In this document: positions 13,012 to 26,804 of the stretch, piece after piece
Position numbering within the stretch: position 1 is the stretch's first letter
How the letters are laid out: each line of letters starts with the position of its first letter
Assembly: GCF_031202265.1 (NCBI RefSeq)
Contig: NZ_CP100604.1
Location: 8,352,501 to 8,416,500, forward strand
Direction of reading: 5' to 3'
DNA from: Bradyrhizobium sp. Ash2021
GTDB lineage: Bacteria > Pseudomonadota > Alphaproteobacteria > Rhizobiales > Xanthobacteraceae
Length of the DNA: 64,000 bases
Position numbers and translations under genes: made by a program
Notes under the pieces: model-generated
Told to the model about the DNA's origin: nothing
Databases searched by the model: none
What the model saw: only the letters and a program-made list of their open reading frames with translations

Positions 13012-13034
13012 GGTGGGGTGTCCTGTTTTTTGTT

Positions 13035-13114
13035 GTCGTTCCGGGGCGCGTCGAAGACGCGAACCCGGAACCTCGAGATTCCGGGTTCAGTCCTGCGGAC
13101 TGCCCCGGAATGAC
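13035..13114. repeat. Hairpin repeat between the two YciI genes
   Basis: Starts GTCGTTCCGGGGCGCG and ends CTGCCCCGGAATGAC, with internal CGTCGAAGACG and GAACCCGGAA...TTCCGGGTTC pairs. It is a compact multi-arm palindrome of the type scattered through Bradyrhizobium-like genomes. It may attenuate transcription between the two YciI genes. Confidence 0.7.
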
Positions 13115-13124
13115 GAAGGAGAAA

Positions 13125-13541
13125 TTATTTCTTCCCGGCCTGCGCACGCAGCCGTTCTTCCTGCTCGCGCAGTTCGGGCGTCAGCGCTTCGCCGAAATCC
13201 TCCGCCGAAAAGACCTGCCGGATTTCGATCTCGTCGCCCTTGCCGAACGGCGCGCGCTTCATCCAGCCGATCGCTTCATCCAGCGATTTGGTCTTGATCA
13301 GCCAGAACCCGGAGATCAGATCGCCGGTCAGTTCGAACGGCCCGCGGCTCAGCGCGTTTTGCCCGGTCGAATATTTGATCCGTGCGCCCTTCGACGTCGG
13401 ATGCAGACCCTCGCCGGCCTCGATCACGCCGGCCTTGGCCATTTCCTCGTTGAACTTGCCCATCGCGGTGAGCAATTCCGTACTCGGCATCACGCCCGCC
13501 TCGCTGTCCTTGCTGGCCTTCACAATCACCATAAATCGCAT
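13125..13541 (-). CDS. YciI/DGPF-domain protein, ECF promoter-proximal
   Basis: 138-residue YCII-related protein (MRFMVIVKASKDSEAG, EAGEGLHPTSKGARIKYSTG). The DGPF position reads SRGPFELTGDLISGFWLIKT, so the first Asp is replaced by Arg. A C-terminal extension is rich in Glu/Arg (LREQEERLRAQAGKK). The start at 13541 fits the family N terminus. An ECF42-type promoter element lies 60 nt upstream (13602-13628). It is the likely first gene of a two-gene YciI unit. Confidence 0.87.
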   Translation of the reverse strand: MRFMVIVKASKDSEAGVMPSTELLTAMGKFNEEMAKAGVIEAGEGLHPTSKGARIKYSTGQNALSRGPFELTGDLISGFWLIKTKSLDEAIGWMKRAPFGKGDEIEIRQVFSAEDFGEALTPELREQEERLRAQAGKK

Positions 13542-13601: not shown

Positions 13602-13628
13602 GACGAACCGGGTTTTGCGGCACCGACA
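13602..13628 (-). promoter_or_regulatory. ECF42-type promoter element, site 1 (YciI pair)
   Basis: Reads TGTCGG-N17-CGTC on the minus strand, with GGTT before CGTC. It is 60 nt upstream of the YciI ATG at 13541. One of six elements with identical hexamer, spacing and GTTCGTC end; see the finding on the regulon. Confidence 0.75.
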
Positions 13629-13732
13629 TGTCCTGAGGAATTATTTTGGAGGTAATTGCACTACGCAACCGACCAAGTGGCTAGGTGCCGCATCCGGAGA
13701 TGCCTGACTCAAAATGCAGCCAATGGAAGAAA

Positions 13733-13820
13733 GACGTGGATGGCCGGCCATAGGCGAGCGAAAGCGACGCCGTCCTTTGAACGGCTATGCCCGGCCATGA
13801 CGGAAAGTGAATCATTTTTC
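13733..13820. repeat. GTGGATGGCCGG...GGCCATGAC repeat, short copy
   Basis: About 80 bp nearly identical to the right half of the repeat at 24476-24641: GACGTGGATGGCCGG, TAGGCGAGCGAAAGCGACGC, then GGCTATGCCCGGCCATGACG. It fills most of the gene-free stretch 13629-13862. Confidence 0.85.
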
Positions 13821-13862
13821 AGGTAGTTAGAAAGAGTCCGAAAACGCTAGCTGCTCTTTGCT

Positions 13863-14054
13863 CTAGGCGCCTGCCCGTTCCTTCAACTGCTCAAATTCAG
13901 CGGGCCGATAGGCGGCTCCATCCGGCATGATGATTTCCACGTTCAGGCACCCGTCCGATATCAGTTCGGCGGCCTTCTTTATCGCAGCGGGTACGGAGTC
14001 GCGGTTCAGCGTGACGGTCCCGGACGTATCGAGCGCGGTGATGTAGAACTTCAT
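13863..14054 (-). CDS. Small conserved-looking hypothetical protein
   Basis: 63-residue protein with no recognised domain. It begins MKFYITALDTSGTVTLNRDS and has a helix (VPAAIKKAAELISDGCLNVE) and a strand region with IIMPDGAAYRPAEFEQLKER, giving a compact alpha/beta pattern. Composition and codon use match the neighbours. The start at 14054 is preferred over 14111 because the extra N terminus is Pro/Trp-rich and unstructured. No function can be assigned. Confidence 0.5.
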   Translation of the reverse strand: MKFYITALDTSGTVTLNRDSVPAAIKKAAELISDGCLNVEIIMPDGAAYRPAEFEQLKERAGA

Positions 14055-14215
14055 TTGCGGCTCCCCAAGTTCGGTTGCCGTCCAGTCTGACCAGGCTGGC
14101 GGCGGCGTCAAGAGGACGGTCGTCCGGGTATGGCGCTTTTTACAGAATTGCGACGTATGGCATTGGGCCTCCGGCTAGCCGGCCTGACCTCATAGTGCTG
14201 CGGCGAAGCGCACCA

Positions 14216-15427
14216 TCAATCGTCGATCGCCTGATAGGCGCAGGTCCAGAAATCCCTGAACACCGCGGGCGGCTGCGGGGAATCCATCATCCGCTGGGTC
14301 AACAGAATTCCGGTGAGATTTTCTTTTGGGTCGGAATACCAGGAGGTTCCATAGCCGCCGTCCCAGCCGAACCGGCCGGGCACGTTGCAGAGATCGTCAC
14401 GCCCAGTGAAAACCGAAAGCCCCAGGCCCCAACCCAAATTGTCGCCCAACAGCAATTCCGAGCCCTGCTTCTGTTCCGGCGTAAGCTGGTCGGTCGTCAT
14501 CAGTTCGACCGAGGGCCGCGACAGGATGCGTTCGCTGCCCAGCCGCCCGCCATTCAGCATCATCTGCGCGAAGGCGTTGAAATCGTCGGCGGTCGAGACC
14601 AGACCGGCACTGCCGTTCTCGAATACCGGCGGCTGCGCGAATTTGCCGGTAGCGGGATCGTCGAACACTTTCAGCGCGCTGCTTGCATGATCCCGCGTAT
14701 AGGCGGTCGCAAAGCGGCCGAGCTTCTCCTGCGGCACGAAGAACGCCGTGTCCCTCATGCCGAGCGGCGCAAAGATGCGCTCGTGCAGGAACTTGGCAAA
14801 CGACATACCGGCGACGCGCGCGATCAGCACGCCGAGGATTTCGGTGCCTGAATTGTACAGCCAGCGTTCGCCGGGCTGGTAGACCAGCGGCAGAGTGCCA
14901 TAGCGCCGCATCAGTTCGTCCGGCGGAAACGATGGAAATACCGGGCCCGGCGCGAAGCCGGCTTCCGCAATCGCCTTCTGGATCGGATAGCGATCCGGAA
15001 ATACCGGGATCATGCCAAGACCCAGCCGGAACGTCATGAGATCGCGCAGCGTGATCGCGCGTTTGGCCGGCACGGTGTCGTCGACCGCAGCATCGATCGC
15101 GCGCAGCACCTTGCGATCGGCCAGTTCCGGCAGCCAGCGATCGACGGGATCGTCGAGCCGCAGCTTGCATTCCTCGACCAGCATCATCGCGGCCGCCGCC
15201 GTCACCGGCTTGGTCATCGAGGTGATGCGAAAAATGCTGTCGCGCCGCATCGGCGCACCGTCGATCGCCAGTTTGCCGATGGCGTTGGCGTGAATCTCGC
15301 CATGCCGGCTCACCAGCATCACCAGGCCGGGCACCTCACCGCTTTCGACGTGGCGCGCCATGGTATCGTGCATGCGGCCGAGACGCGTTGTCGAAAGTCC
15401 GCCGTTACTGGTCATTATCCGTTCCAT
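14216..15427 (-). CDS. Serine hydrolase, class C beta-lactamase / family VIII esterase fold
   Basis: 403-residue serine hydrolase. The catalytic SxxK is ITSMTKPVTAAAAMMLVEE (Ser and Lys of SMTK), the second motif is the Tyr of RWLYNSGTEILGVLIARVAG (YNS), and a C-terminal WDGGYGTSWYSDPKE block is typical of esterases with this fold. It probably cleaves an ester substrate in the cytoplasm; no signal peptide is seen. Start codons at 15427 and 15415 are both possible. The SnoaL-like gene lies 70 bp upstream, and both are probably transcribed from the ECF-type element at 16029-16055. A second esterase of this fold is at 41388-42584. Confidence 0.87.
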   Translation of the reverse strand: MERIMTSNGGLSTTRLGRMHDTMARHVESGEVPGLVMLVSRHGEIHANAIGKLAIDGAPMRRDSIFRITSMTKPVTAAAAMMLVEECKLRLDDPVDRWLPELADRKVLRAIDAAVDDTVPAKRAITLRDLMTFRLGLGMIPVFPDRYPIQKAIAEAGFAPGPVFPSFPPDELMRRYGTLPLVYQPGERWLYNSGTEILGVLIARVAGMSFAKFLHERIFAPLGMRDTAFFVPQEKLGRFATAYTRDHASSALKVFDDPATGKFAQPPVFENGSAGLVSTADDFNAFAQMMLNGGRLGSERILSRPSVELMTTDQLTPEQKQGSELLLGDNLGWGLGLSVFTGRDDLCNVPGRFGWDGGYGTSWYSDPKENLTGILLTQRMMDSPQPPAVFRDFWTCAYQAIDD

Positions 15428-15497
15428 GGGAGATATCCAATCGTGGTCGCCTTGATGTGACGGGCCGGATCGCACCTGCCCGGCCTGTCCAGCGGGT

Positions 15498-15866
15498 TCA
15501 TGACTGCAGTTTTGCAAACGCGCCGTTGTTGTAGGTCGCGCCGAAATAGACATCGATGCGCTTGATCTTGTCGCCTTCAAAGACGAAACACTCGGTATTG
15601 CGAAAGCTCTTTCCGTCCCTGGCCATGCATTGATAGGTCACAAAGGCCGCATCGCCTTCGACCAGGATCCTTTCGAGATCCTGCCGTTCGATCCAGTCGC
15701 TGGGCTTCCAGCACCGCGCGAAATAGGTCGCCTTGTCGATGCGGTCGTCATAGGGACTGGTGAAACAGAAATCGTCGGTGAAGGACGCCTCGACGGCCTT
15801 GCGATCGTTCGACCGGTAGGCCGCAAACAGGGCGCGGATGATCTCCGCCTTGCGTGAAGAGGGCAT
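15498..15866 (-). CDS. SnoaL/NTF2-like small protein
   Basis: 122-residue NTF2-fold protein (SnoaL-like): MPSSRKAEIIRALFAAYRSN opens the first helix. ASFTDDFCFTSPYDDRIDKA forms the pocket wall and IKRIDVYFGATY the last strand. Proteins of this family often accompany ECF41/ECF42 sigma factors. A tiny ORF that looks like a broken MFS start precedes it by 11 nt, and an ECF-type promoter element lies 163 nt upstream. The substrate is unknown. Confidence 0.82.
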   Translation of the reverse strand: MPSSRKAEIIRALFAAYRSNDRKAVEASFTDDFCFTSPYDDRIDKATYFARCWKPSDWIERQDLERILVEGDAAFVTYQCMARDGKSFRNTECFVFEGDKIKRIDVYFGATYNNGAFAKLQS

Positions 15867-15876
15867 GTCAGCCCCC

Positions 15877-15954
15877 TTACGCCGGCTGCTCGATGCCGGC
15901 GCAGGTCATGCGTGCGCCGACCGCGACAATGACCCAACGACAGGAAAGCTTCAT
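15877..15954 (-). pseudogene. 25-codon ORF, probable remnant of an MFS transporter N terminus
   Basis: ATG with GGAG 7 nt upstream, encoding MKLSCRWVIVAVGARMTCAG and five more residues before TAA. The RWVIVAxGAxMTC string resembles the first membrane helix of MFS transporters, where it normally continues into AIGAMFSLAVFL. It lies between the ECF-type element (16029-16055) and the SnoaL gene, so the element may originally have driven a transporter that has been deleted. It could instead be a leader peptide. Confidence 0.4.
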
Positions 15955-16028
15955 GCCGTGCTCCGTCCCGATTTCAACCGGGTCCGCGGTTCAGACAACC
16001 GTGTTCCGAACCGCGACCCCAACGTTAA

Positions 16029-16055
16029 GACGAACGAGTTCCCGCAAAACCGACA
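16029..16055 (-). promoter_or_regulatory. ECF42-type promoter element, site 2 (SnoaL-esterase)
   Basis: TGTCGG-N17-CGTC on the minus strand, with CGTT before CGTC. It is 75 nt upstream of the short MFS-like ORF and about 163 nt upstream of the SnoaL ATG. Confidence 0.7.
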
Positions 16056-16077
16056 CATCAGCCGAAAATTTTTCGGC

Positions 16078-16725
16078 TCATTTCGGCACCATCCTGAAAT
16101 ACGGCTCGGCCTCCTCGATCACGCGGGCGATCGAGGGCCGCGCCTTCAGGCGTTCGAAATAGGCCGTCAGGTTTTTGTTATCGCTGCCGAACGGTTCCAC
16201 CATGTTGCCGTAAAACAGCGGCGGCAGCGCGGCGCAGTCGGCGAGGCTGAAATCATTGCCCATCGCCCAGCCACCGCCCGCCATCTGCTGTTCGATCATG
16301 CCGTAAGACGTCCGCAACTGCGCCCGCGCCTCTTCGACGCCATGCGGATCCTTGTTGTCGCCGGGGCGACGCCGGTCGCCCATGATCTTCTGCATCGGCA
16401 GATGCACATAGAGATCGTAGAAGCGGTCGCGCAGCCGCGTCTGCAAGGCCAACTCCGGATCGTCGGAGATGAATTTCGTGCGGCCGGGATAATACCGGTC
16501 GAGATATTCGATGATGACACTCGACTCCGGAACGGTCTGGTTCCGCGCCGCGTCGCGCAAGACCGGAAATTTGCCGAGCGGCCAAAGTTTCAGCAACGCC
16601 GCGCGCTCGGCCGGATTGCCGAGATCAACCGATTTCGGCGTGAATGGCGTGCCGTTCTCATAGAGTGCAATCAGCGCCTTCCAGCAGAACGACGAAAGCG
16701 GATGGAAATGCAGCGTCAGCGACAT
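16078..16725 (-). CDS. Glutathione S-transferase family protein
   Basis: 215-residue cytosolic GST. The thioredoxin-like N-terminal domain has MSLTLHFHPLSSFCWKALIA (Ser/Cys at the glutathione site), GKFPVLRD with the cis-Pro, and ESSVIIEYLDRYYPG (Glu-Ser binding the glutamyl group). The helical C-terminal domain has MGNDFSLADCAALPPLFYGN with the N-capping motif. A conjugation or thiol-stress role is expected from the family. It is the first gene after an ECF42-type element 46 nt upstream (16772-16798). Confidence 0.9.
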   Translation of the reverse strand: MSLTLHFHPLSSFCWKALIALYENGTPFTPKSVDLGNPAERAALLKLWPLGKFPVLRDAARNQTVPESSVIIEYLDRYYPGRTKFISDDPELALQTRLRDRFYDLYVHLPMQKIMGDRRRPGDNKDPHGVEEARAQLRTSYGMIEQQMAGGGWAMGNDFSLADCAALPPLFYGNMVEPFGSDNKNLTAYFERLKARPSIARVIEEAEPYFRMVPK

Positions 16726-16771
16726 GAGGTCTCCTTGTATTGCCCGGCGGCTTGCCGAAGCGCCGCCCCAG

Positions 16772-16798
16772 GACGAACCGGATCGTGCAGCACCGACA
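16772..16798 (-). promoter_or_regulatory. ECF42-type promoter element, site 3 (GST)
   Basis: TGTCGG-N17-CGTC, with GGTT before CGTC, 46 nt upstream of the GST ATG at 16725. The flank ATGTCGGTGC is shared with site 1. Confidence 0.75.
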
Positions 16799-16857
16799 TG
16801 TCCGGCGAAATTATTTCGATGGGCAAGGCACGCTTGCGCGGTGCCCGCCGCTCACGT

Positions 16858-17244
16858 CTACACCCACCTTCGCGTCATTTCCGCCGCACCCTCCATCATG
16901 GCTTCGAACACCGGCGCCGCCAGCACGGCGTGGATGTGAAGCGGCGCGGTGCCGGAGTTGCGAAAACCGTGCTGGCGCAAGGCCGGCACGATCAGCGACT
17001 GCCCCGCTGTCAGGACGGCGCGGTCCTCATCGATCCACATCTCGGCTTCGCCCTCACGCACCGTCAGCACCTCTTCGACCGGATGCGAATGGGTCGGCGC
17101 GCCGGTGCCGGGCGCGACCCATTGTTCGAAGATGCAGAGTTGCGCGGCGCCATTGACGGCGGAAGCCACCATGCGGGTTTCGACGCCCGCGCGCCAATGT
17201 TCCGGGGCTCTCTGCCTGGGATCGATGATGTTCACGAGATCCAT
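16858..17244 (-). CDS. Cupin-domain protein
   Basis: 128-residue single cupin. The metal-binding motif 1 is GAPTHSHPVEEVLTVREGEA (two His, Glu) and motif 2 includes ALRQHGFRNSGTAPLHIHAV. Small single-domain cupins bind a metal and may be dioxygenases, isomerases or sensors, so no substrate can be named. It is divergent from the SDR gene at 17331, and the short shared intergenic region of 86 bp suggests joint control. Confidence 0.82.
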   Translation of the reverse strand: MDLVNIIDPRQRAPEHWRAGVETRMVASAVNGAAQLCIFEQWVAPGTGAPTHSHPVEEVLTVREGEAEMWIDEDRAVLTAGQSLIVPALRQHGFRNSGTAPLHIHAVLAAPVFEAMMEGAAEMTRRWV

Positions 17245-17330
17245 CCTTTCGCTTGGTTGCGCGCCAAGAAAGCAGACGCTTCGCTTCCGTGCTAGGAGAA
17301 CAAGGAATCACCAAAACGACGGATAAAGCC

Positions 17331-18119
17331 ATGGCCCCTGCCCCACAAAAAGTCGCACTCGTCACCGGCGCCGCGCGCGGCATCGGGCTTGCGACCGCAA
17401 AACGGTTTCTGGCCGAGGGCTGGCACGTGGCGCTGCTGGATATCGAAGGCGAATTGCTGGACGGCGCGGTCGCGGCGCTGGCCAATCCGGACAACACGCT
17501 GGCACTGCATTGCGACGTCAGCGATGCCGACGCGGTCGCGGCCGCCATGGCCACGTTGAGCCAGCGCTTCGGCCGGCTCGACGCATTGATCAACAATGCC
17601 GGCGTTGCCGTGTTCGCGCCGCTGCTGGAGACCTCAGATGCGGACTGGAACCGGATCCTGTCGGTCAATCTCACCGGGCCCTTCCTGTGCACCAAGGCGG
17701 CCGCCCCACTGATGCGCGAGCATGGCGGCGGCGCGGTGGTCAACATCACGTCCATTTCGGCGGTGCGCGCCTCGACGCTGCGCTCGGCCTACGGCACCAG
17801 CAAGGCCGGCCTTGCGCATTTGACCAAGCAGCTCGCAGTCGAACTCGCTTCCCTCGGCATCCGCGTCAACGGCGTGGCGCCGGGCCCGGTCGAGACCGCG
17901 ATGGCCAAGGCCGTGCATACGCCGGAGATTCGCGCCGACTATCACGACGCGATTCCGCTCAATCGCTACGGCCTCGAGGAAGAACTGGCGGAAGCGGTGT
18001 TCTTCCTGTGCTGCGATCGTTCGAGCTACATCACCGGGCAGATCCTCGCCGTCGATGGCGGCTTCGATGCCGCCGGCATCGGCTTGCCGACGCTGCGCGG
18101 CGAGCGGCGAAACGGCTAG
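17331..18119 (+). CDS. Short-chain dehydrogenase/reductase
   Basis: 262-residue classical SDR. The NAD(P) motif is VALVTGAARGIGLATAKRFL (TGxxxGIG), followed by LINNAGVAVFAPL (NNAG). The catalytic Ser is in NITSISAVRA and the Tyr/Lys in SAYGTSKAGLAHLTKQLAVE (YxxxK). The end matches SSYITGQILAVDGGFDAAGI. The Asp ending the second strand (LLDIEGELLD) favours NAD over NADP. ATG 17331 was chosen because it starts 7 residues before the first strand. The substrate is unknown. Confidence 0.9.
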   Translation: MAPAPQKVALVTGAARGIGLATAKRFLAEGWHVALLDIEGELLDGAVAALANPDNTLALHCDVSDADAVAAAMATLSQRFGRLDALINNAGVAVFAPLLETSDADWNRILSVNLTGPFLCTKAAAPLMREHGGGAVVNITSISAVRASTLRSAYGTSKAGLAHLTKQLAVELASLGIRVNGVAPGPVETAMAKAVHTPEIRADYHDAIPLNRYGLEEELAEAVFFLCCDRSSYITGQILAVDGGFDAAGIGLPTLRGERRNG

Positions 18120-18122
18120 CGC

Positions 18123-18698
18123 TCAAATCCACCAGCGCCGATTGACCGCGACGACGCGCCAGCCGCCATCGAGGCGATCGATCCGGGTCAGCGACAGCGG
18201 ATCGATCACAAAACGCAGCGCGTTGTCGGGCGCAAGATCGAGCGCCATCGCAAGCACGGCGCGGATGGTGCCGGAATGCACCACCAGCACGGCGTCGCCC
18301 ATGGGCAGGGAGGCAAGCCCTGCCCGCGCGCGCGCTATCTGGTCGACAAAGCTTTCGCCGCCGGGCGGCCGGTTGCCGGCCGGCGATTTCCAGAATTCGC
18401 GATAGGCCTCGCCGAGTTCGGTGCTGAGATCGTCGTGACGCCGCCCGGTCCAGGCGCCAAAATCCTGTTCGCGAAAGGCCGGGTTATCGACCGCTTCAAG
18501 CCCCAGCGTGCGCGCGGTTTCCCGCGTGCGGCGCGCCGGGCTGCAGACGGCAAGCGCATTCGGCGGCAACCTGGCCTTGAGCGCGGCAAAGGCCGCGGCA
18601 TCGCCAAGATCGGCCGGCGCATCCGGGCCATGAATGACGCCGCGCGGCCCGTCGACCGGTGCGTGCCGGATCAGCCAGAGATTTGTCTCGAGGCTCAT
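18123..18698 (-). CDS. Histidine phosphatase family protein, probable alpha-ribazole phosphatase (CobC-like)
   Basis: 191-residue phosphoglycerate-mutase-fold phosphatase. The catalytic N terminus is TNLWLIRHAPVDGPRGVIHG (RHA in place of the commoner RHG), followed by VCSPARRTRETARTL, FREQDFGAWTGRRHDDL, and the second catalytic His in VLVVHSGTIRAVLAMAL. It starts 6 nt after cobS on the same strand. Together with cobT across the divergent gap this indicates alpha-ribazole-5'-phosphate dephosphorylation in late cobalamin assembly. The CobC call rests mainly on context. Confidence 0.8.
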   Translation of the reverse strand: MSLETNLWLIRHAPVDGPRGVIHGPDAPADLGDAAAFAALKARLPPNALAVCSPARRTRETARTLGLEAVDNPAFREQDFGAWTGRRHDDLSTELGEAYREFWKSPAGNRPPGGESFVDQIARARAGLASLPMGDAVLVVHSGTIRAVLAMALDLAPDNALRFVIDPLSLTRIDRLDGGWRVVAVNRRWWI

Positions 18699-18703
18699 CG
18701 CGA

Positions 18704-19456
18704 TCAGGCCAGCCGGGCGGCGAGCAGCACGAGGATCGCGGTCTCGGCGACCTGCTCGGCGCCACCCAGCACGTCGCCGGTCTGGCCGCCGATCTGGCGC
18801 TTCGCAAGCCACGCCATGCCGATCGCGCCGGCTGCGGCCATGATGGCGGCGAGCAGCGCGTTGACAAAGGACAGCGACAGCCATGCGATCGCAAAAGCAA
18901 AAGCCGCGGCCGTCGCCGCCGTCGCCGCATCGGGCCGGCCGGCATTGGCGGCGAGCCCGTCCGTGCGCGCATAAGGCTGGCTGATCGCCATCCACGGCAG
19001 CACGCCGCGCGCCAGCGCATGCACCGCGATCAGGCTTTGCACGACATAGCCGTCCGGGATTGCAGCCAGCGCGGAAAGTTTTGTCGCAAAGCTCACCAGC
19101 AGGACCAGCGCGCCATAGGTGCCGAGCCGGCTGTCGCGCATGATCTCCAGTTTCGCCGCGACATCGCGGCCGCCGCCGAATCCGTCGGCGACATCGGCCA
19201 GCCCGTCCTCATGCAGCGCGCCGGTCAGCATGGCGCCGACGCCGAGCGCCAGTGCGGCCGCCGCCAGATCGGGCACGCCGATGTGCCGCGAACCGAGGCA
19301 GAGCAAGCCGACCGCGGCGCCGATCATGGCGCCCACAATCGGAAACATCCGCTGCGCGCGCACGAAATTCGGCGGCATCGCGCCTTCCGGATGCGGCATC
19401 GGCAGCCGGGTCAGGAAACCGACCGCGGTTTTGAAATCGTCGAGCCATTCGTTCAT
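18704..19456 (-). CDS. cobS: Adenosylcobinamide-GDP ribazoletransferase
   Basis: 250-residue integral membrane enzyme that joins adenosylcobinamide-GDP to alpha-ribazole in the last steps of coenzyme B12 synthesis. Family motifs are FLTRLPMPHPEG near the N terminus, the acidic GALHEDGLADVADGFGGGRD, and MRDSRLGTYGALVLLVSFAT. Several hydrophobic helices follow. It is divergent from cobT by 58 bp; no cobalamin riboswitch fits in that gap. Confidence 0.96.
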   Translation of the reverse strand: MNEWLDDFKTAVGFLTRLPMPHPEGAMPPNFVRAQRMFPIVGAMIGAAVGLLCLGSRHIGVPDLAAAALALGVGAMLTGALHEDGLADVADGFGGGRDVAAKLEIMRDSRLGTYGALVLLVSFATKLSALAAIPDGYVVQSLIAVHALARGVLPWMAISQPYARTDGLAANAGRPDAATAATAAAFAFAIAWLSLSFVNALLAAIMAAAGAIGMAWLAKRQIGGQTGDVLGGAEQVAETAILVLLAARLA

Positions 19457-19514
19457 GGTGGTGCCCAGAGAATTGTTTTAGCTTGCGACCCGCTCGACTT
19501 GTCCAGGGAATCGC

Positions 19515-20531: not shown

Positions 20532-20598
20532 AAGGGCCCTTGCCGCGTGCGCCAAGCCTGATTAACTCGAATGATCATCAGACGCGAAGGAGCCGCTG

Positions 20599-21036
20599 AT
20601 GCGAAGAGCCGTGATTAAATTGGCTGTTGCGATCGTGGCGCTATGCGCGGCGATCTCGCCCACGCAGGCCGAGGTGCGCATTCTGGCGAGCCCGGGCGGA
20701 CAGGTCGGCCCGTTCCTCGACCTGTTCGAACAAGTGCGCGCCTCCGGCGAACGCGTCGTGATCGACGGACCGTGCCTGTCGGCCTGCACGCTGGTGCTGT
20801 CCATCGTACCGGACAGCCGTATCTGCGTGACGCGGCGCGCGGTGCTCGGATTTCATGCCGCGCGGTCGATCGACGGGCGCGGCCAGATGTATGCCGAGCC
20901 GGAAGCGTCGGAAGCGGTGCTGGAAGCCTATCCCGCGGCGGTGCGGGGCTGGATCAGCCGCCGCGGCGGATTGACGTCGCGGCTGCTGCTGCTGCGCGGG
21001 CGGGAACTCGCCGCGATCTACCCGAGGTGCAGGTAG
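20599..21036 (+). CDS. Secreted ClpP/crotonase-like small periplasmic protein
   Basis: 145-residue exported protein. It has a signal peptide (VIKLAVAIVALCAAISPTQA) and then ASPGGQVGPFLDLFEQVRAS and VVIDGPCLSACTLVLSIVP, the pattern of predicted periplasmic ClpP-like proteins in which the Ser of the CLSAC segment corresponds to the nucleophile region. RAVLGFHAARSIDGRGQ follows. Catalytic activity is not assured. It has an AAGGAG-type ribosome site (GCGAAGGAGCCGCTG). It stands alone, 67 bp after cobT. Confidence 0.65.
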   Translation: MRRAVIKLAVAIVALCAAISPTQAEVRILASPGGQVGPFLDLFEQVRASGERVVIDGPCLSACTLVLSIVPDSRICVTRRAVLGFHAARSIDGRGQMYAEPEASEAVLEAYPAAVRGWISRRGGLTSRLLLLRGRELAAIYPRCR

Positions 21037-21045
21037 CAGCGCAGC

Positions 21046-21456
21046 TCACATGCCTTCCAGCGGGCAATTCACCATCCAGGGTATGCCGAACTGGTCGACG
21101 CACATGCCAAAGCCCTTGGAGAAGAAGGTCTTGCCGAACGGCATGTTGACGCTGCCGCCTTCCGAGAGTGCCTTGAACTTGCGCTCGGCCTCGGCGGGAT
21201 CGCCGACCGTCAGCGACACCGAAAAGCCCTGCGGCTTTTGAAAGTGATCGGGCGGCGCGTCGGACGCCATCAGCACCTGGCTGCCGATCGACATCCGCGC
21301 ATGCATGATCTTTTGCTTGCGCTCCGGCGGCGACGCCATCTCGGGCGGCCCCTCTTCATTTCGGAGCATCATCTCGATCTTGCCGCCCAGCGTCTTTTCG
21401 TAGAACTTGAACGCCGCCTCGCAATTGCTGTTGTAGAACAGGTAGGGATTAAGCAT
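21046..21456 (-). CDS. VOC-family (PhnB-like) protein
   Basis: 136-residue glyoxalase/bleomycin-resistance-fold protein of the PhnB subgroup. It begins MLNPYLFYNSNCEAAFKFYE, has the central HARMSIGSQVLMASDAPP, and ends FGMCVDQFGIPWMVNCP. It is the last gene of a three-gene unit (DoxX, SRPBCC, VOC) driven by the ECF42-type element at 22535-22561. PhnB-like proteins are recurrent partners of ECF41/42-type sigma factors. The substrate is unknown. Confidence 0.87.
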   Translation of the reverse strand: MLNPYLFYNSNCEAAFKFYEKTLGGKIEMMLRNEEGPPEMASPPERKQKIMHARMSIGSQVLMASDAPPDHFQKPQGFSVSLTVGDPAEAERKFKALSEGGSVNMPFGKTFFSKGFGMCVDQFGIPWMVNCPLEGM

Positions 21457-21507
21457 CGTTTACTCCTTGCTGAAGTTTACCGGCTAACCGGCGGTTCGAA
21501 CGTTTAA

Positions 21508-22044
21508 CTATTTCTCCGTCAGCTTCTTCAGATTGGCGAGACCGACCTCGAAATCCTTGCCGATCATATTGTCCATGTTCATGAACACCTGCATCACCTT
21601 GTACATAAAGGACGCGGGTCCATGCATCACCCAGGTCAAATTGGTGACATCGCCCTGCGGCAGCATTGTGAATTCGGCGGTGTTGTGGCCCTCGATCGGT
21701 TTGAAGAAATCGAGCTTGATGACGATCTTCGACGGCACGGCAGCGTCGATGATTTCCATCCGGCCGGAACCGACATTGTTGTTGCCGTCCCACGCATAGA
21801 CCGCGCCCTTGCCTTCAGCCGCGCCGCTATAGGTGCGCTTCATTGCGCGGTCCTTGTTCTCGTAGGGCGACCAGGCAACCCACTGATGAAAATCATTGAT
21901 CAGGGAGAATATCTTTTCCGCCGGCGCCTTGATGCTGGTCGCGCGCCGCACGGCGAAGCTACTGGGTTTGGTGAGCGCGAGCACCAGCACGATGGCGATG
22001 GCAATCGCGAGGATGACGGCGATGATGGCAATGACTTCAAACAT
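21508..22044 (-). CDS. Membrane-anchored SRPBCC-domain protein
   Basis: 178-residue protein with an N-terminal membrane helix (MFEVIAIIAVILAIAIAIVL) followed by a START/Bet v1-like domain: RRATSIKAPAEKIFSLINDF, then QWVAWSPYENKDRAMKRTYS and VTNLTWVMHGPASFMYKVMQ. This is the polyketide-cyclase-like family that binds hydrophobic ligands. Start 22044 has GGAG 7 nt upstream; the ATG at 22080 would overlap the preceding gene's end. It lies between DoxX and VOC genes in one unit. Confidence 0.85.
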   Translation of the reverse strand: MFEVIAIIAVILAIAIAIVLVLALTKPSSFAVRRATSIKAPAEKIFSLINDFHQWVAWSPYENKDRAMKRTYSGAAEGKGAVYAWDGNNNVGSGRMEIIDAAVPSKIVIKLDFFKPIEGHNTAEFTMLPQGDVTNLTWVMHGPASFMYKVMQVFMNMDNMIGKDFEVGLANLKKLTEK

Positions 22045-22081
22045 GGTGGGCTCCGTGTCGTTGAAATACCGATAAGACAAA

Positions 22082-22495
22082 TTAGCGGCGGAATGGTAGC
22101 AGCGAACGCAGGTTGCGGTCGCGCAACCACAACCCGCCCCATAGCATCAGGCCGAGATAAAGTCCGAACAGGGTGTGGCTGAACAAGGGGCTGCCGATCC
22201 GCACATGCGAAGCGATTGCGCCACCGAGATAGCCGGTCACGAGGATCGCGCCGAGGATCGAGGTCGGCGGGATCGAATAGAGCACGGTGCAGACGACGGT
22301 GATGACCCCGAGGCTTCGCGCCAGGCTTTCGCTCGAGCCATAGCCCATTTTGTCCATCGTTTCCGTGACGACCGGCCACGGCACCAGCTTGATGGCGCCG
22401 TCGAACAGCAGGAAGACGATCACCAGACCGCTGAGAATGCGGCCCAGCAAGCGCGCGGATTTTGAGACCGGCACGGTCTCGGCGATATCGGACAT
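22082..22495 (-). CDS. DoxX-like small membrane protein
   Basis: 137-residue protein with four membrane segments (ILSGLVIVFLLFDGAIKLVP, LGVITVVCTVLYSIPPTSIL, GAILVTGYLGGAIASHVRIG, HTLFGLYLGLMLWGGLWL). It matches the DoxX-like family found with ECF-controlled detoxification genes. The role may be in thiol/oxidative homeostasis, but this is only inferred. It is the first gene of a three-gene unit, 39 nt below an ECF42-type element. Confidence 0.85.
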   Translation of the reverse strand: MSDIAETVPVSKSARLLGRILSGLVIVFLLFDGAIKLVPWPVVTETMDKMGYGSSESLARSLGVITVVCTVLYSIPPTSILGAILVTGYLGGAIASHVRIGSPLFSHTLFGLYLGLMLWGGLWLRDRNLRSLLPFRR

Positions 22496-22534
22496 GGCTC
22501 GCTCCGTGAAGGGATCGTGTTGTTCTGCCCCTAG

Positions 22535-22561
22535 GACGAACGGGCGGAGCGAAATCCGACA
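22535..22561 (-). promoter_or_regulatory. ECF42-type promoter element, site 4 (DoxX-SRPBCC-VOC)
   Basis: CTGTCGG-N13-CGTTCGTCCTAG on the minus strand, 39 nt upstream of the DoxX ATG at 22495. The downstream CGTCCTAG is shared with site 5. Confidence 0.8.
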
Positions 22562-22596
22562 GGGGGATAAAGATTTTTATCGCACAATCCGGAAGC

Positions 22597-22736
22597 GTGC
22601 CCCGGATGCTGCGCAGCGCGCCGCATTTGCGGCGTGATGCGCTGCTGATCCGGGGTCCATGGCCGCGCGTCCGGAAGCGTGGGTCCCGGCTCTGCGGTGC
22701 ACCGCCTAAGTGGGCGCTGCACCGCGTCCGGGACAC
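22597..22736. repeat. Long imperfect hairpin repeat, family B (copy 2 of 3)
   Basis: Starts GTGCCCCGGATGCTGCGCA and ends CTGCACCGCGTCCGGGACAC, with internal GATCCGGGGTCC and GGGTCCCGGCTCTGCGGTGC arms. It lies just downstream of the ECF42 sigma gene, directly before site 4. Confidence 0.85.
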
Positions 22737-22746
22737 GAAGGCGAAC

Positions 22747-24021
22747 TTACTTCCCCTCCTTCTTGCCGCGCGGCTGGCTGTCGCGCATCAGGCGGTCGAG
22801 ATGCATCCGGATATGGGCGGCTTCGGCTGACGTGTGGGCCAGCGCGATAGCGCGGTCAAAGGCTACCCGGGCTTCGTCATTGCGGCCGAGCTGCATCAGG
22901 AACGCGCCGCGCACGCCGAAGAAATGAAAGTAATTCGACAGCCGCGGCGCCAAAGGCTCGATCATCTGAAGCGCCGCCTCCGGCCCCCGCACCTTGGAGA
23001 CCGCGACCGCGCGGTTGAGCGTGACCACCGGCGACGGCTGCATGATCTCGAGCGCGCCGTAGAGCAGGTCGATCTGGGTCCAGTCGGTATCCTCAGGTCT
23101 TTCGGCGCGGGCATGCAAGGCCGCGATCGCGGCCTGGACCTGGTAGGGCCCGCTGCGGCGATGCCGCATCGCCTTGTCGATCAGCGCCAGCCCTTCGGCG
23201 ATCATCTTCTGGTTCCACAGGCTGCGGTCCTGATCGTCGAGCAGGATCACCGCGCCGTCCTGGTCGAATCGTGCGGCGGCGCGGGCATGCTGCAGCAACA
23301 ACAGCGCTGTCAGCCCCATGATCTCGGCCTCGCTCTGGAACAGCCGCAGCAACAGCCGCGCCAGACGAATCGCCTCCTCGCACAGGGGGCTGCGGATCTC
23401 TGCGGTATCGCCGCTGGCCGAATAGCCCTCGTTGAAGATCAGATAGATCATCGCGGCCACCGCCGACAGCCGCTCGCTACGCTCCACCGCGCCCGGGGTC
23501 TCGAACGGCACACTGGCTTCGGCGACGCGAGCTTTGGCGCGGGTGATGCGCTGCTCCATCGCGGCTTCCGAGACCAGAAAGGCGCGCGCGATCTGCTTGA
23601 CCGTCAGGCCGGAGACGATGCGCAGCGCGAGCGCGATCTGCTGCGTCGCCGGCAAATCCGGATGGCAGCAGATGAACAGCAGCCGCAGGATGTCGTCGCG
23701 ATAATGCGAGCCGTCGAGCCGTTCGGCGAGCGCATCCTCGGCGTCTTCGGTGTCGGAGATCGCCTGGTCGTCCTCGGGCAGCGGCTGCTGCTTGCGGCCG
23801 CGCCTGATATCGTCGATCGCGACGTTGCGCCCGACCATGATCAGCCAGCCGGCGGGATCGCGCGGCGGGCCGTTCTGCGGCCAGCTTTTGAGCGCGCGCA
23901 GGCAGGCGTTCTGGAACGCTTCCTCGGCGGTATCGAGATTACGGAAATAGCGCAGCAGCGCGCCGACCGCCTGGGGACGCGCCGACGTCAACGCGGCATC
24001 TATCCAGGCGGTGTCGGTCAC
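22747..24021 (-). CDS. ECF42-type RNA polymerase sigma factor with C-terminal TPR-like extension
   Basis: 424-residue sigma factor, about twice the length of a simple ECF. Region 2 (LLRYFRNLDTAEEAFQNACL, WLIMVGRNVAIDDIRRGRKQ) and region 4 (VKQIARAFLVSEAAMEQRIT) fill the first ~170 residues. The rest is a helical, TPR-like domain beginning near IYLIFNEGYSASGDTAEIRS, the FNEGY signature of the ECF42 group. It includes PSPVVTLNRAVAVSKVRGPE and RGAFLMQLGRNDEARVAFDR. Group members lack a classical anti-sigma factor and neighbour DGPF proteins, as here: the start overlaps the YciI stop by 4 bp. It is probably autoregulated from site 5. Confidence 0.93.
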   Translation of the reverse strand: MTDTAWIDAALTSARPQAVGALLRYFRNLDTAEEAFQNACLRALKSWPQNGPPRDPAGWLIMVGRNVAIDDIRRGRKQQPLPEDDQAISDTEDAEDALAERLDGSHYRDDILRLLFICCHPDLPATQQIALALRIVSGLTVKQIARAFLVSEAAMEQRITRAKARVAEASVPFETPGAVERSERLSAVAAMIYLIFNEGYSASGDTAEIRSPLCEEAIRLARLLLRLFQSEAEIMGLTALLLLQHARAAARFDQDGAVILLDDQDRSLWNQKMIAEGLALIDKAMRHRRSGPYQVQAAIAALHARAERPEDTDWTQIDLLYGALEIMQPSPVVTLNRAVAVSKVRGPEAALQMIEPLAPRLSNYFHFFGVRGAFLMQLGRNDEARVAFDRAIALAHTSAEAAHIRMHLDRLMRDSQPRGKKEGK

Positions 24022-24398
24022 GTGGCGAGGCTCCCGGGGTTCAAGAGCCCGACCGGGCGGATCTCATAGGCGCCGCCGGGATTGGCCTTGCCGAGATCGC
24101 GGGCGACGTCGAGCGCTTCGTCCAGGTTCTTGCAGTCGACGATGTAGAAGCCGAGTAATTGTTCCTTGGTCTCGGCGAAGGGGCCGTCGAGCACGATCGG
24201 CGGATCGTCCTTGCGCAGCGTGGTCGCCGATGTCGTCGGCAACAGCCGCGCCACCGGACCGAGCCGGCCCTGTTTGGTCAGTTTGTCCTGCACGACGGCG
24301 AGTTTCTGCATCACCGCGGCGTCCTGTTCCTTGGTCCAGGACCCGGTGAAATCTTCGTCGTGATAGCAAAGGATGGCGTACAGCATGGGATGCGGCAT
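24018..24398 (-). CDS. YciI/DGPF-domain protein coupled to ECF42 sigma factor
   Basis: 126-residue YCII-related protein: MLYAILCYHDEDFTGSWTKE, then the namesake VLDGPFAETKEQLLGFYIVD and the C-terminal ARDLGKANPGGAYEIRPVGL. Its stop overlaps the sigma-factor start (ATGA), so the two are translated together, the standard ECF42-DGPF arrangement. Starts at 24398 and 24386 are both possible; GGAG abuts the first ATG, and the second fits the family N terminus. The ECF42-type element lies 16 nt upstream of 24398. Confidence 0.9.
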   Translation of the reverse strand: MPHPMLYAILCYHDEDFTGSWTKEQDAAVMQKLAVVQDKLTKQGRLGPVARLLPTTSATTLRKDDPPIVLDGPFAETKEQLLGFYIVDCKNLDEALDVARDLGKANPGGAYEIRPVGLLNPGSLAT

Positions 24399-24413
24399 CT
24401 CCGTTGTCTCTAG

Positions 24414-24440
24414 GACGAACGATTATGCCCGCAGCCGACA
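24414..24440 (-). promoter_or_regulatory. ECF42-type promoter element, site 5 (YciI-sigma, autoregulatory)
   Basis: CTGTCGG-N13-CGTTCGTCCTAG on the minus strand, directly upstream of the YciI-sigma operon. Its position in front of the sigma gene itself implies autoregulation. Confidence 0.8.
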
Positions 24441-24475
24441 GGTCGGCGAAGAGAATTTACAACGGGTTCCTTGCT

Positions 24476-24641
24476 CGTCATGCCCGGCCATAGCGGTCTG
24501 GCTTGCGCAGACTGCGTAAACTTGTCTGCGATGCCGGGCATCCACGTTCTTTGTGCCGCACAGCAGTCAAGGACGTGGATGGCCGGGCATAGGCGAGCGG
24601 AAGCGACGCCGTCCTTCGGACGGCTATGCCCGGCCATGACG
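24476..24641. repeat. Long inverted repeat (CGTCATGCCCGGCCATAGC ... GGCTATGCCCGGCCATGACG)
   Basis: A 166-bp element whose ends are near-perfect inverted copies of each other. The centre carries CCGGGCATCCACGTTCTT opposed to GGACGTGGATGGCCGGGCAT, so it folds into a long hairpin. The right half recurs at 13733-13820. It occupies most of the gap between the YciI-sigma promoter and the next gene and may act as a bidirectional transcription barrier. Confidence 0.88.
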
Positions 24642-24681
24642 CGAAGTGAAATTTTTCCGGTCGCCTGAGGCGATTGCGGCA

Positions 24682-24969
24682 TTACCAGTAGACGCCGTAG
24701 CGGGCGGCGATCCGGCGCGCCTTGGCCTCGTCGGCCTCATAGCCCCGCACATGGGACTTCTGCCTGGAGGCGTGATGCTTGGCGCCTTCCGGCTTGGCGG
24801 CATCGGTCTTGACGTCGGCGTTGATCTGCTCGGCCGGGGTTTGTTCCGGCTTGGCGGTCTCGACGGCCCTGGTCTCATCATTGGCGGCCAGTGTCATGTT
24901 GCGGCTCTCGCCGGCGTGAGCCGACATCGAGGCCAGCACGAAAGCGGATATCAGGATCAATTTGCGCAT
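24682..24969 (-). CDS. Small secreted hypothetical protein
   Basis: 95-residue exported protein with a signal peptide (MRKLILISAFVLASMSAHAG). The mature part is hydrophilic, Ala/Glu/Lys-rich (VETAKPEQTPAEQINADVKT) and ends with a basic helix (EADEAKARRIAARYGVYW). No domain is recognised. GGAG lies upstream (GGGGAGACCTCCG). The neighbouring genes give no functional hint. Confidence 0.6.
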   Translation of the reverse strand: MRKLILISAFVLASMSAHAGESRNMTLAANDETRAVETAKPEQTPAEQINADVKTDAAKPEGAKHHASRQKSHVRGYEADEAKARRIAARYGVYW

Positions 24970-25060
24970 CGGAGGTCTCCCCTCGTTGACGAAAGGAGGC
25001 TAAAGCAACGGTTCAATTCGTAATGTGACGCAGGTCACGCTGGGTGCGGAAGGTGTTGGA

Positions 25061-26026
25061 ATGGGTAAAGGTGCGCTCGCTCTGCTGGTGCATGGCGGGA
25101 CTGAAAACTGGTCGCCACGGCGGTGGAAGACCCGATTCGATGAGGTCTGCCGGAATCGGCCGGTTTTGCTGTTGCCGGACGCTTCGTTCGATCCGGCCGC
25201 GGTCCATTACGCCGCGGTGTGGAAGCCGCAGCCGGGCGAACTGGCCGCGTTCCCCCATCTGCGCGTCATCTTCAATCTGGGCGCGGGCGTCGACGCGCTG
25301 ATGGCGGACAAGTCGCTGCCCGATGTGCCGCTGGTGCGGGTCGCGGTCTCCGATCTCACCGCGCGGATGACGGAATATGTCGTGCTGCATGTGCTGATGC
25401 ATCACCGGCAGGAGTTGTACTTACGGGAGTCGCAGCGCGAAAAACGCTGGGCGCCGAAATCGCAATGGGCGGCCGGCGCCGTCACGGTCGGCATCATGGG
25501 GCTGGGCACGCTCGGGGCGGACGCGGCCGAGGTGCTGCGGCGGATCGGCTTTCGTGTCGTGGGCTGGAGCCGGAGCCCGAAGCGGATCGACGGCGTCGAA
25601 TGCTTTCACGGCGAAGCGCTGCTCGAACCGTTCCTGCGCCAGACCGATATCCTGGTCTGCCTGCTGCCGCTGACGCCGGAGACGCGGCACGTTCTGGGTC
25701 GCAACCTGTTCGCCAAGCTCAACCGCACGAGCCCGATAGGCGCGCCGGTGCTGATCAACGCCGGCCGCGGCGGCCTGCAGAACGAGGCCGACATCCTGCA
25801 ATGCCTCGACGACGGCACGCTCGGCGCAGCCTCGCTCGATGTCTACGCCACCGAGCCGCTGCCCACGGACAGTCCGTTCTGGAGCCATCCCAAGGTGGTG
25901 CTGACGCCGCACAATGCGGCCGACACCGACGCGGACGAAATCTCGAAATATGTCGCGCAGCAGATTGAACGCTTTGAAGCCGGCGGCGCGCTGGAGAATA
26001 TCGTCGATCGCGGACGGGGGTATTGA
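25061..26026 (+). CDS. 2-hydroxyacid dehydrogenase, glyoxylate/hydroxypyruvate reductase A-like
   Basis: 321-residue NAD(P)-dependent D-2-hydroxyacid dehydrogenase close to the GhrA group. The Rossmann motif is VGIMGLGTLGADAAEVLRRI. Catalytic residues are the Arg of LINAGRGGLQNEADI, the Glu of SLDVYATEPLP, and the His of VLTPHNAADTDADEISKY. It should reduce glyoxylate or hydroxypyruvate in the cytoplasm. The start at 25061 has TTGGA/GGAAGG nearby and begins at the first beta strand. A perfect hairpin follows the stop (26035-26060). Confidence 0.88.
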   Translation: MGKGALALLVHGGTENWSPRRWKTRFDEVCRNRPVLLLPDASFDPAAVHYAAVWKPQPGELAAFPHLRVIFNLGAGVDALMADKSLPDVPLVRVAVSDLTARMTEYVVLHVLMHHRQELYLRESQREKRWAPKSQWAAGAVTVGIMGLGTLGADAAEVLRRIGFRVVGWSRSPKRIDGVECFHGEALLEPFLRQTDILVCLLPLTPETRHVLGRNLFAKLNRTSPIGAPVLINAGRGGLQNEADILQCLDDGTLGAASLDVYATEPLPTDSPFWSHPKVVLTPHNAADTDADEISKYVAQQIERFEAGGALENIVDRGRGY

Positions 26027-26034
26027 TACTCACT

Positions 26035-26060
26035 GTCGTCCCTGCGAAAGCAGGGACGAC
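26035..26060 (+). terminator. Hairpin terminator-like element after hydroxyacid dehydrogenase
   Basis: Perfect 11-bp stem GTCGTCCCTGC / GCAGGGACGAC with a GAAA loop, followed by ATCTTTATAA. It can serve both convergent genes. The same CGTCCCTGCGAAAGCAGGGA core is a common intergenic motif in related genomes (from memory). Confidence 0.7.
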
Positions 26061-26086
26061 ATCTTTATAAGTTCGCGCACTTCGCC

Positions 26087-26743
26087 TCACGCCATCGCGG
26101 ACCGTCGCCGTACGGTGACGTGGGTCGCGTTCGGGCCCGCAACGCTTTCGGCACAAGCAAAGCCGAGGGCCGGCAAGTCGAGCCCCGAGAACAGGTTCTC
26201 TCCTCTCCCCAGAAGAACCGGGGAAACTGCCAGATGAAGTTCGTCGAGCAGACCTGCCTGCAGATATTGCCTGACAACCGAGACGCCGCCGCCGATGCGA
26301 ACGTCCTTGCCGCCGGCAATTGCTGTCGCCCGCTGCAGCGCCGCCGTGATGCCATCGGTCACGAAATGAAAGACGGTGCCGCCCTCCATCTCGATGGAAG
26401 GGCGCGCATGATGCGTCAGGACGAACACCGGCACGTGGTAGGGCGGATTGTCTCCCCACCAGCCCTTCCAGGAATGATCGGGCCATTGGCCGCGGATCGG
26501 GCCGAACATGTTTCGTCCCATGATCCAGGCGCCCACCCCCTCCATCGACTTCCGGGCAAACCGATCGTCGGTGTCGACCGCGCCTCCCTCCTGGCCGATC
26601 ATTTCATGAAACATCCGCGTCTTGAGCAGCCAATTGGTCACCTCAATACCGGGAACACCAAATGGATGCTCCAGGTCCTGATTTGGACCCGCCCCAAATC
26701 CGTCGAGCGATACCGAGAACGCGGAGGCTCTTACTTTTCCCAT
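26087..26743 (-). CDS. Dihydrofolate-reductase-fold (RibD C-terminal) protein
   Basis: 218-residue RibD_C/DHFR-like reductase. It begins VRASAFSVSLDGFGAGPNQD and has the conserved GAWIMGRNMFGPIRGQWPDH, VFVLTHHARPSIEMEGGTVF, DVRIGGGVSVVRQYLQAGLL (nucleotide-binding GGG) and DELHLAVSPVLLGRGENLFS. Members reduce small aminosugar- or pterin-like compounds; the true substrate is unknown. The family is a frequent ECF41/42-associated gene, and an ECF42-type element lies 34 nt upstream. Confidence 0.9.
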   Translation of the reverse strand: MGKVRASAFSVSLDGFGAGPNQDLEHPFGVPGIEVTNWLLKTRMFHEMIGQEGGAVDTDDRFARKSMEGVGAWIMGRNMFGPIRGQWPDHSWKGWWGDNPPYHVPVFVLTHHARPSIEMEGGTVFHFVTDGITAALQRATAIAGGKDVRIGGGVSVVRQYLQAGLLDELHLAVSPVLLGRGENLFSGLDLPALGFACAESVAGPNATHVTVRRRSAMA

Positions 26744-26777
26744 TGTGTCTCTCTTTCCTCTTTGACCACTTCCGGGG

Positions 26778-26804
26778 GACGAACGGGAAAACGGTGGGCC
26801 GACA
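26778..26804 (-). promoter_or_regulatory. ECF42-type promoter element, site 6 (RibD-like reductase)
   Basis: TTGTCGG-N13-CGTTCGTCCCC on the minus strand, 34 nt upstream of the ATG at 26743. It is the most distal of the six matching elements. Confidence 0.75.

Follow-up and report, generated by a model that had tools for sequence, protein, structure and literature searches.

The closest described counterparts of the gene cluster considered here are the regulons of ECF42 sigma factors, a group within the extracytoplasmic function (ECF) sigma factors, in which region 4 generally reads the -35 element and region 2 the -10 element of a promoter. The cluster occupies 13 kb of a 64,000-nt stretch of Bradyrhizobium sp. 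Ash2021 (contig NZ_CP100604.1, designated C1; C1:8352501-8416500 of a 9.70-Mb genome), referred to as the window, and comprises an ECF42-type sigma factor gene (22747-24021) together with six copies of the promoter-like element TGTCGG-N17-CGTC. The target motif of the ECF42 sigma factors of Streptomyces venezuelae reportedly reads TGTCGA, CG[AT]C. The best comparison is offered by RpoE10 of Sinorhizobium meliloti. According to the accessible text of PMC6180224, RpoE10 overexpression raised six genes at least 2-fold, four of them in two operons (SMc01149-SMc01148 and SMb20475-SMb20474), and both operons carry a -35/-10 motif upstream of mapped transcription starts. In Table 1 of that paper, the motifs of both operons and of the YciI gene SMc01151 read TGTCGG-N17-CGTC, the spacing being counted in the present analysis; the SMc01151 motif overlaps a start mapped by rapid amplification of cDNA ends (5′-RACE), and the YciI-sigma operon did not rise. 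The same table gives a similar promoter, TGTCAC-N17-CGTC (spacing again counted here), for the ECF41 sigma factor RpoE9. Other ECF42 members include those of S. venezuelae (Liu 2018), which resemble the present sigma factor in their C-terminal extension, rich in TPRs and described as indispensable for activity (PMC8999054, PMC8103513), and ECF-10 of Pseudomonas putida, for which effects on antibiotic resistance, biofilm formation, and oxidative stress are reported (PMC6180224, PMC8999054). The review PMC8999054, as far as its accessible text goes, describes the ECF42 extension as essential and possibly controlled by a protein partner. No inducer of any ECF42 sigma factor is named in the accessible portions of PMC6180224, PMC8999054 and PMC8103513.

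The six elements in the window are very probably the -35/-10 promoters of a single ECF42-type sigma factor, the RpoE10 orthologue encoded at 22747-24021, and they head six units: YciI-YciI; SnoaL-beta-lactamase-fold; GST (glutathione S-transferase); DoxX-SRPBCC-VOC; YciI-sigma; and RibD-like (Table 1). The extended motif TGTCGG-N13-[CG]GTTCGTC has exactly six matches in the window, all on the minus strand and within 13 kb, and none in 100 dinucleotide shuffles of the window, confirming the six minus-strand sites with a 17-nt gap that had been noticed in the original prediction. The looser form TGTCGG-N17-CGTC occurs in the 64 kb at those six positions alone, with 0.29 matches expected. That prediction had placed each site upstream of a short unit, which holds for the six units, although the sigma gene has no site of its own (none in 80 relatives) and stands second in the YciI-sigma unit. 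The distance from the end of the site to the gene start is 0 or 60 nt for YciI-b (two possible starts), 162 for SnoaL, 46 for GST, 39 for DoxX, 15 or 27 for YciI-c, and 34 for RibD-like. Each site follows an AT-rich tract located 10-18 nt upstream (-18 to -10), where 7-9 of 9 bases are A/T in all six; across 212 distinct sites the AT fraction there is 0.67-0.95, in comparison with a window GC content of 0.63, and a second, weaker AT tract lies at -29 to -24. The agreement goes beyond the likeness to TGTCGA / CG(A/T)C noted in the original prediction: TGTCGG-N17-CGTC itself sits at the mapped starts of the two RpoE10-raised operons of S. meliloti (PMC6180224, accessible text).

Genome-wide, TGTCGG-N14-GTTCGTC (hereafter the strict form) has 10 exact matches, six of them inside the cluster, and the reversed-pattern control has none. 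The expectation that such matches would concentrate before genes of the cluster's families was borne out by these six and by two further ones, upstream of a PhnB-type VOC gene (locus L013) and an MFS transporter gene (L014), but not by the remaining two, which precede Ku genes and have a likelier explanation (see below). Only the extended exact form discriminates, because the scan allowing at most one mismatch (28 matches, including the 10 exact ones, vs 25 for the control, that is, background) and the loose form (32 matches, of which 30 were inspected, vs 23 in the control) stay near their controls. On a scoring matrix derived from the relatives' sites, the cluster sites score 24.5-58.7, values inflated because the matrix contains their orthologues; the VOC and MFS sites, which are not in the matrix by homology to a cluster gene, score 39.5 and 18.2, the two Ku sites 12.4 and 7.8, and 20 other loose genomic matches at most 5.3. 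Within the window, only the six sites exceed 14.

The sigma factor is predicted to belong to ECF42 on the basis of 73% identity over 411 aa to the S. meliloti Ak57 orthologue of RpoE10, which the accessible text of PMC6180224 places in this group, and each testable feature of the group was found. The protein contains sigma regions 2 and 4 only, followed by a C-terminal extension of about 200 aa with two sub-cut-off TPR matches (Pfam). In a structure model, residues about 178-415 are all-helical with a predicted local confidence (pLDDT) of mostly 70-96, the N-terminal half lying below 50; Foldseek returned mostly TPR superhelices, none at E<=0.001, and a PDB sequence search gave two weak ECF matches. 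The YciI gene 24018-24398 shares 4 nt with the start of the sigma gene, and YciI is present in 80/80 relatives. No anti-sigma gene was detected among the Pfam-scanned neighbours, some small frames lying outside the scan. The promoter feature, TGTCGG-N17-CGTC, is as in S. meliloti. In the Ak57 record (labelled pSymB, 3.7 Mb, carrying dnaA), the gene order is YciI, sigma, SRPBCC, the YciI proteins share 61% identity, and both YciI and the SRPBCC gene are preceded by the motif, each time after an AT-rich stretch. In Ak57, 29 nt of the published SMc01151 string could be located, as could the 27-nt core of the SMc01149 string, though not that string in full. Among six named loci from a plasmid collection (109 records), four (L249, L250, L251, L254) carry TGTCGG-N17-CGTC ahead of annotated genes, L253 has TGTCGT-N17-CGTC, and L252 has no site. 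The locus resembles the RpoE10 regulon of PMC6180224 in its orthologous sigma factor, YciI-sigma operon, TGTCGG-N17-CGTC promoter, and glyoxalase-type targets, and differs from it in having six sites in 13 kb plus two likely distal ones, as well as GST, SnoaL, esterase-like, RibD-like, DoxX, and MFS genes.

Conservation was examined in the loci of relatives, collected by a sigma scan of genome contigs (best 80 of 357; 74 titled Bradyrhizobium, six carrying other names or being unclassified bins). All 231 occurrences of TGTCGG-N17-CGTC lie on the sigma strand, with none on the opposite strand. Spacing 16 gives 3 and 5 matches on the two strands and spacing 18 gives 7 and 3; when the gap was varied over 8-26 nt, spacing 17 came out far on top, the next sigma-strand peaks being 44 (spacing 13) and 41 (spacing 24). 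The 200 permuted motifs gave at most 47 forward-strand matches, with a median of 1. As related loci are not independent, these site counts are not probabilities. The strict form is found 91 times, all on the sigma strand, in 62 of the 80 loci and at most four times per locus, so that the six strict sites near the sigma gene in the window are the most seen. A homologue of a cluster gene begins within 400 nt downstream of 214 of the 231 sites, the remaining 17 being unassigned, some of them at the ends of loci. Counted within 250 nt upstream, sites precede 58/80 YciI-c, 26/70 SRPBCC, 2/74 VOC, and 2/6 beta-lactamase-fold genes, in addition to the orthologues listed in Table 1. None precedes, on the gene's own strand, any of the SDR (66), CobS (23), CobT (23), or hydroxyacid dehydrogenase (78) genes, the orthologues of the TetR gene at 26849 (66), or the sigma genes (80). 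The site-to-start distance in relatives is 13-197 nt, with medians of 17-80. The site travels with the first gene of the operon: it stands at DoxX in 31 loci having both DoxX and SRPBCC, at SRPBCC in 26 loci without DoxX, and at both genes in none, while one locus has DoxX with a site and no SRPBCC found and nine have neither gene.

Co-occurrence with the sigma factor was further assessed in 149 genomes of the family, of which 56 (one a fragment) bear the sigma factor at >=71% identity and 93 were classed as sigma-less, including two with 51-56% matches. The strict form occurs 110 times (control, 8) in the sigma-bearing and 30 times (control, 15) in the sigma-less genomes; with the genome of strain Ash2021 left out, 55 sigma-bearing genomes hold 100. 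At least one strict site is present in 39/56 sigma-bearing and 27/93 sigma-less genomes. At 29 further loci whose translations were read by eye, a YciI, VOC, GST, or SRPBCC-type gene lies downstream in 14/17 cases from sigma-bearing genomes vs 1/12 from sigma-less ones. In six congeners, 19 of 24 strict sites precede YciI, GST, DoxX, VOC, SRPBCC, beta-lactamase-fold, or MFS genes, three precede Ku, one DUF2277, and one no clear gene (by eye). For five of the congener proteins, and for three from the own genome, the assignment was confirmed with Pfam. A strict site precedes the MFS transporter orthologue in four genomes, with spacers that are unrelated (L014, L201, L203, L212), suggesting that it is likely a distal regulon member, and the PhnB-type VOC gene and the MFS gene are probably two distal targets of the sigma factor. 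Taken with the strand bias, the fixed spacing, the tracking of operon heads, and the S. meliloti orthologue, this co-occurrence gives good support to the ECF42 regulon proposed in the original prediction, and we infer that the sigma factor uses these sites in this strain.

Several observations weigh against this reading. The strict form is absent from 18/80 loci, and a site is missing upstream of SnoaL in 25/36, SRPBCC in 44/70, and YciI-a in 23/44 cases, genes that are perhaps often not operon heads. No exact site stands at either gene in 10 DoxX+SRPBCC loci and three SRPBCC-only loci. Opposite-strand sites within 250 nt occur at 33/78 hydroxyacid dehydrogenase and 12/66 SDR genes, yet these are expected for divergent neighbours. 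In 10/10 unit groups, conservation is higher in the hexamers than in the spacer and the flank, which is largely built in because the search required 10 of the 13 compared letters; better evidence is given by positions that the search left free, T+28 (0.95) and T+22 (0.84). Strict sites are lacking in 17/56 sigma-bearing genomes and present in 27/93 sigma-less ones. The S. meliloti SRPBCC protein is no clear relative of that in the window (E=0.029), and in the accessible text of PMC6180224 the response is limited to six genes without the sigma factor's own operon. One alternative is that not all six sites are functional, the others being decayed or coincidental copies. The GST and YciI-b sites look alike beyond the hexamers (by eye), as promoter duplication would produce, the matrix from relatives gives its lowest scores to the RibD and DoxX sites (24.5 and 27.9 vs 46-59 for the other four), and the SnoaL site is the one 162 nt from its gene. 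Nevertheless, all six retain both elements, the 17-nt gap, and the AT tract, and the sites before the RibD-like and DoxX genes recur in their orthologues (17/18 and 32/42), so that a partly defunct set is unlikely.

A second explanation is that the sites are promoters of another ECF sigma factor (an ECF42 paralogue, an ECF41-type, or the general-stress EcfG), in which case the cluster would answer another signal. Two more ECF42-like sigma factors are indeed encoded in the genome, with 48% and 44% identity (L032, C1:7297218, and L033, C1:8841934), and the RpoE9 promoter mentioned above is similar. The paralogues' own YciI genes are, however, preceded by TGTCGT-N17-CGAC and TGTCGA-N17-CGTC, with an AT-rich stretch ahead, and these sequences are kept in relatives: 14 upstream stretches (L186-L191 and L193-L197 among them) gave TGTCGT-N17-CGAC in seven, TGTCGA-N17-CGTC in four, TGTCGA-N17-CGAC in one, and no such site in two. 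TGTCGT-N14-GTTCGAC has a single genomic match, at its own paralogue locus; the genome scan with TGTCGA-N15-TTCGTC gave zero matches because the third paralogue's own site ends in GATCGTC and is excluded by the pattern. General-stress control is suggested by the Ku genes, where exact motif matches recur (L021, C1:7692402, and L022, C1:7701302, in this genome; L178, L202, and L217 in relatives). At L021 and L022, the ECF42-like match overlaps a GGAAC-N18-TTGAAT element common to many Ku genes of the family, sigma-less genomes included. In a survey of 30 Ku loci with 29 located starts (the unlocated L222 being the L178 Ku, which has both patterns), GGAAC-N18-20-TTGA[AG]T lies upstream of 21/29 as a raw count (17/21 in sigma-bearing and 4/8 in sigma-less genomes), in comparison with 3/29 for TGTCGG-N17-CGTC, and at L021, L022, L178, and L217 both patterns were recovered by this search. 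The published general-stress (EcfG/RpoE2) consensus is GGAAC-N16-CGTT (PMC7083833), which the Ku elements meet only loosely. Ku as an ECF42 target, with a link to DNA repair, was rejected, as a GGAAC-type promoter, probably of the general-stress kind, explains these matches better and the part preceding the hexamer has low matrix scores at both Ku sites of this genome; dual control of Ku genes by both promoter types may occur. At the six cluster sites, neither GGAAC-N15-18-CGTT nor GGAAC-N18-20-TTGA[AG]T was found from 150 nt upstream through to the gene. As TGTCGG-N17-CGTC is linked to the sigma gene 22747-24021 and enriched with its presence, control by another ECF sigma factor appears very unlikely. 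Least credible of all is the view that the sites are operators of a DNA-binding regulator such as one of the two TetR-family proteins encoded at the cluster ends (11779-12519 and 26849-27505; the distal VOC gene at L013 likewise has a TetR-like frame upstream, by eye), for the element lacks symmetry, keeps a constant gap of 17 nt, is directed into the gene behind an AT tract at an UP-like position, precedes the mapped starts of two S. meliloti operons (PMC6180224, accessible text), and is upstream of 0/66 orthologues of the TetR gene at 26849.

Under control by the ECF42-type sigma factor, TGTCGG would be recognized by region 4 and CGTC, 17 nt further on, by region 2, and the AT tract probably aids RNA polymerase in the manner of an UP element. 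The sigma factor would be activated probably through its C-terminal TPR-like domain instead of release from an anti-sigma factor, and YciI is the obvious candidate partner of this domain. The active sigma factor would then turn on the six small units and probably the distal VOC and MFS genes. Judged from their gene families, the products would handle small reactive or toxic molecules, in line with the proposed detoxification. The autoregulation claimed in the original prediction has to be read as putative: in the accessible text of PMC6180224, RpoE10 overexpression left its own operon without a rise, and the mapped start of that operon falls within the stretch covered by the motif; moreover, in 20/80 relatives' loci (e.g., L054, L059, L062) CGTT replaces CGTC at the YciI-sigma promoter. 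This promoter reads TGTCGG/CGTC in 58 loci, TGTCGG/CGTT in 19, TGTAGG/CGTC in two, and CGTCGG/CGTT in one. The 47 other sites in the 20 CGTT loci keep CGTC, a count restricted to CGTC by construction; a second CGTT match occurs in 1/20 of these loci and one in 1/60 of the others. On a quick sigma tree (81 rows), the CGTT change takes three steps, and a single origin was rejected (one-clade tree, p-AU 0.00035). The simplest reading is that CGTT may be a weaker self-promoter. Tentatively, and with more doubt than confidence, three parallel ECF42 sigma factors can be envisaged in Bradyrhizobium, whose promoters would all be built alike (AT tract, TGTCG and one further base, exactly 17 nt, CG[TA]C) and which would be insulated by a two-position code consisting of the last -35 base and the third -10 base (G/T for this sigma factor, T/A and A/T for the others); one of them would have grown a cluster-wide regulon, with its sigma-operon promoter almost alone changing repeatedly from CGTC to CGTT. 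If true, these would be natural orthogonal sigma-promoter pairs with evolvable feedback strength.

The type of switch is already known from S. meliloti and is not a new kind. A Bradyrhizobium ECF42 regulon was not found in the literature searched, which consisted mainly of papers outside subscription, and neither "ecf 42" nor "ycii" occurs in PMC3420878, which deals with 17 B. japonicum ECF sigma factors. Within the same literature, the larger regulon (GST, SnoaL plus esterase-like, DoxX-SRPBCC-VOC, RibD-like, extra YciI, and distal VOC and MFS genes), the two ECF42 paralogues with differing promoter codes, and the CGTC-to-CGTT change at the sigma-operon promoter seem not to have been described. 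The likely promoters, six to eight in number and sharply defined in sequence, would serve as reporters in a search for the signal and for the roles of the TPR-like domain and YciI, and with the paralogue codes and the CGTT variant both sigma-promoter specificity and the tuning of feedback could be tested directly.

Table 1. Predicted promoters and genes of the six units (window coordinates; site counts refer to orthologues in the relatives' loci).
Feature	Position	Strand	Evidence or remark
ECF42-type promoter of YciI(13125)-YciI(12592) unit	13602..13628	-	AT tract upstream; TGTCGG-N17-CGTC at 21/22 orthologues
YciI-family protein (YciI-b), RGPF replacing DGPF; frame open to 13601	13125..13541	-	PF03795 E=4.5e-13 (longer frame)
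YciI-family protein (YciI-a), DGPF	12592..13011	-	PF03795 E=3.3e-23; own site in 21/44 relatives, none here
ECF42-type promoter of SnoaL/beta-lactamase-fold unit	16029..16055	-	site upstream of 11/36 SnoaL orthologues
SnoaL-like protein	15498..15866	-	PF12680 E=7e-9
Beta-lactamase-fold, esterase-like protein; start uncertain, frame open to 15580	14216..15418	-	PF00144 E=9.9e-69 (longer frame)
ECF42-type promoter of GST gene	16772..16798	-	site upstream of 24/32 GST orthologues
Glutathione S-transferase family protein	16078..16725	-	PF13417 E=5.1e-14, PF00043 E=3e-10
ECF42-type promoter of DoxX-SRPBCC-VOC unit	22535..22561	-	site upstream of 32/42 DoxX orthologues; operon-head test
DoxX-like protein	22082..22495	-	PF13564 (DoxX_2) E=4.4e-18
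SRPBCC (polyketide cyclase/dehydrase-like) protein; frame open to 22080	21508..22047	-	PF10604 (Polyketide_cyc2) E=6.6e-9 (longer frame)
VOC (glyoxalase/bleomycin-resistance fold) protein	21046..21456	-	PF00903 E=1.6e-11
ECF42-type promoter of YciI-sigma operon (putative autoregulation)	24414..24440	-	like site upstream in 80/80 relatives
YciI-family protein (YciI-c), DGPF; possible start at internal Met 24386; heads sigma operon	24018..24398	-	PF03795 E=6.8e-20
ECF42-type sigma factor	22747..24021	-	region 2 PF04542, region 4 PF08281, DUF6596 PF20239, helical TPR-like C-terminus
ECF42-type promoter of RibD-like gene	26778..26804	-	site upstream of 17/18 orthologues
RibD_C (dihydrofolate-reductase-like) protein	26087..26743	-	PF01872 E=5.3e-16

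Pfam assigns the unit genes to YCII (three proteins), beta-lactamase fold, SnoaL_2, GST, Glyoxalase, Polyketide_cyc2, DoxX_2, and RibD_C, and the cluster span also includes SDR, CobS, and CobT-type phosphoribosyltransferase genes (Pfam), whose relatives, as mentioned above, have no own-strand site. For the beta-lactamase-fold protein, the best NCBIfam match is methyl acetate hydrolase AcmB, at 145.6 bits and under the cut-off of 550. Between the two YciI genes, a palindromic repeat-like stretch (13012-13124, by eye) could weaken transcription into the second. On the minus strand at 15890-15954, between the site at 16029 and SnoaL, a short frame starting MKLSCRWVIVAVGA resembles the start of the L014 MFS protein (SRYRWVIVAAGG) and may be an MFS gene remnant (by eye). 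A near-perfect intergenic palindrome at 26034-26061 has the look of a dispersed repeat and matches a paralogue motif on both strands.

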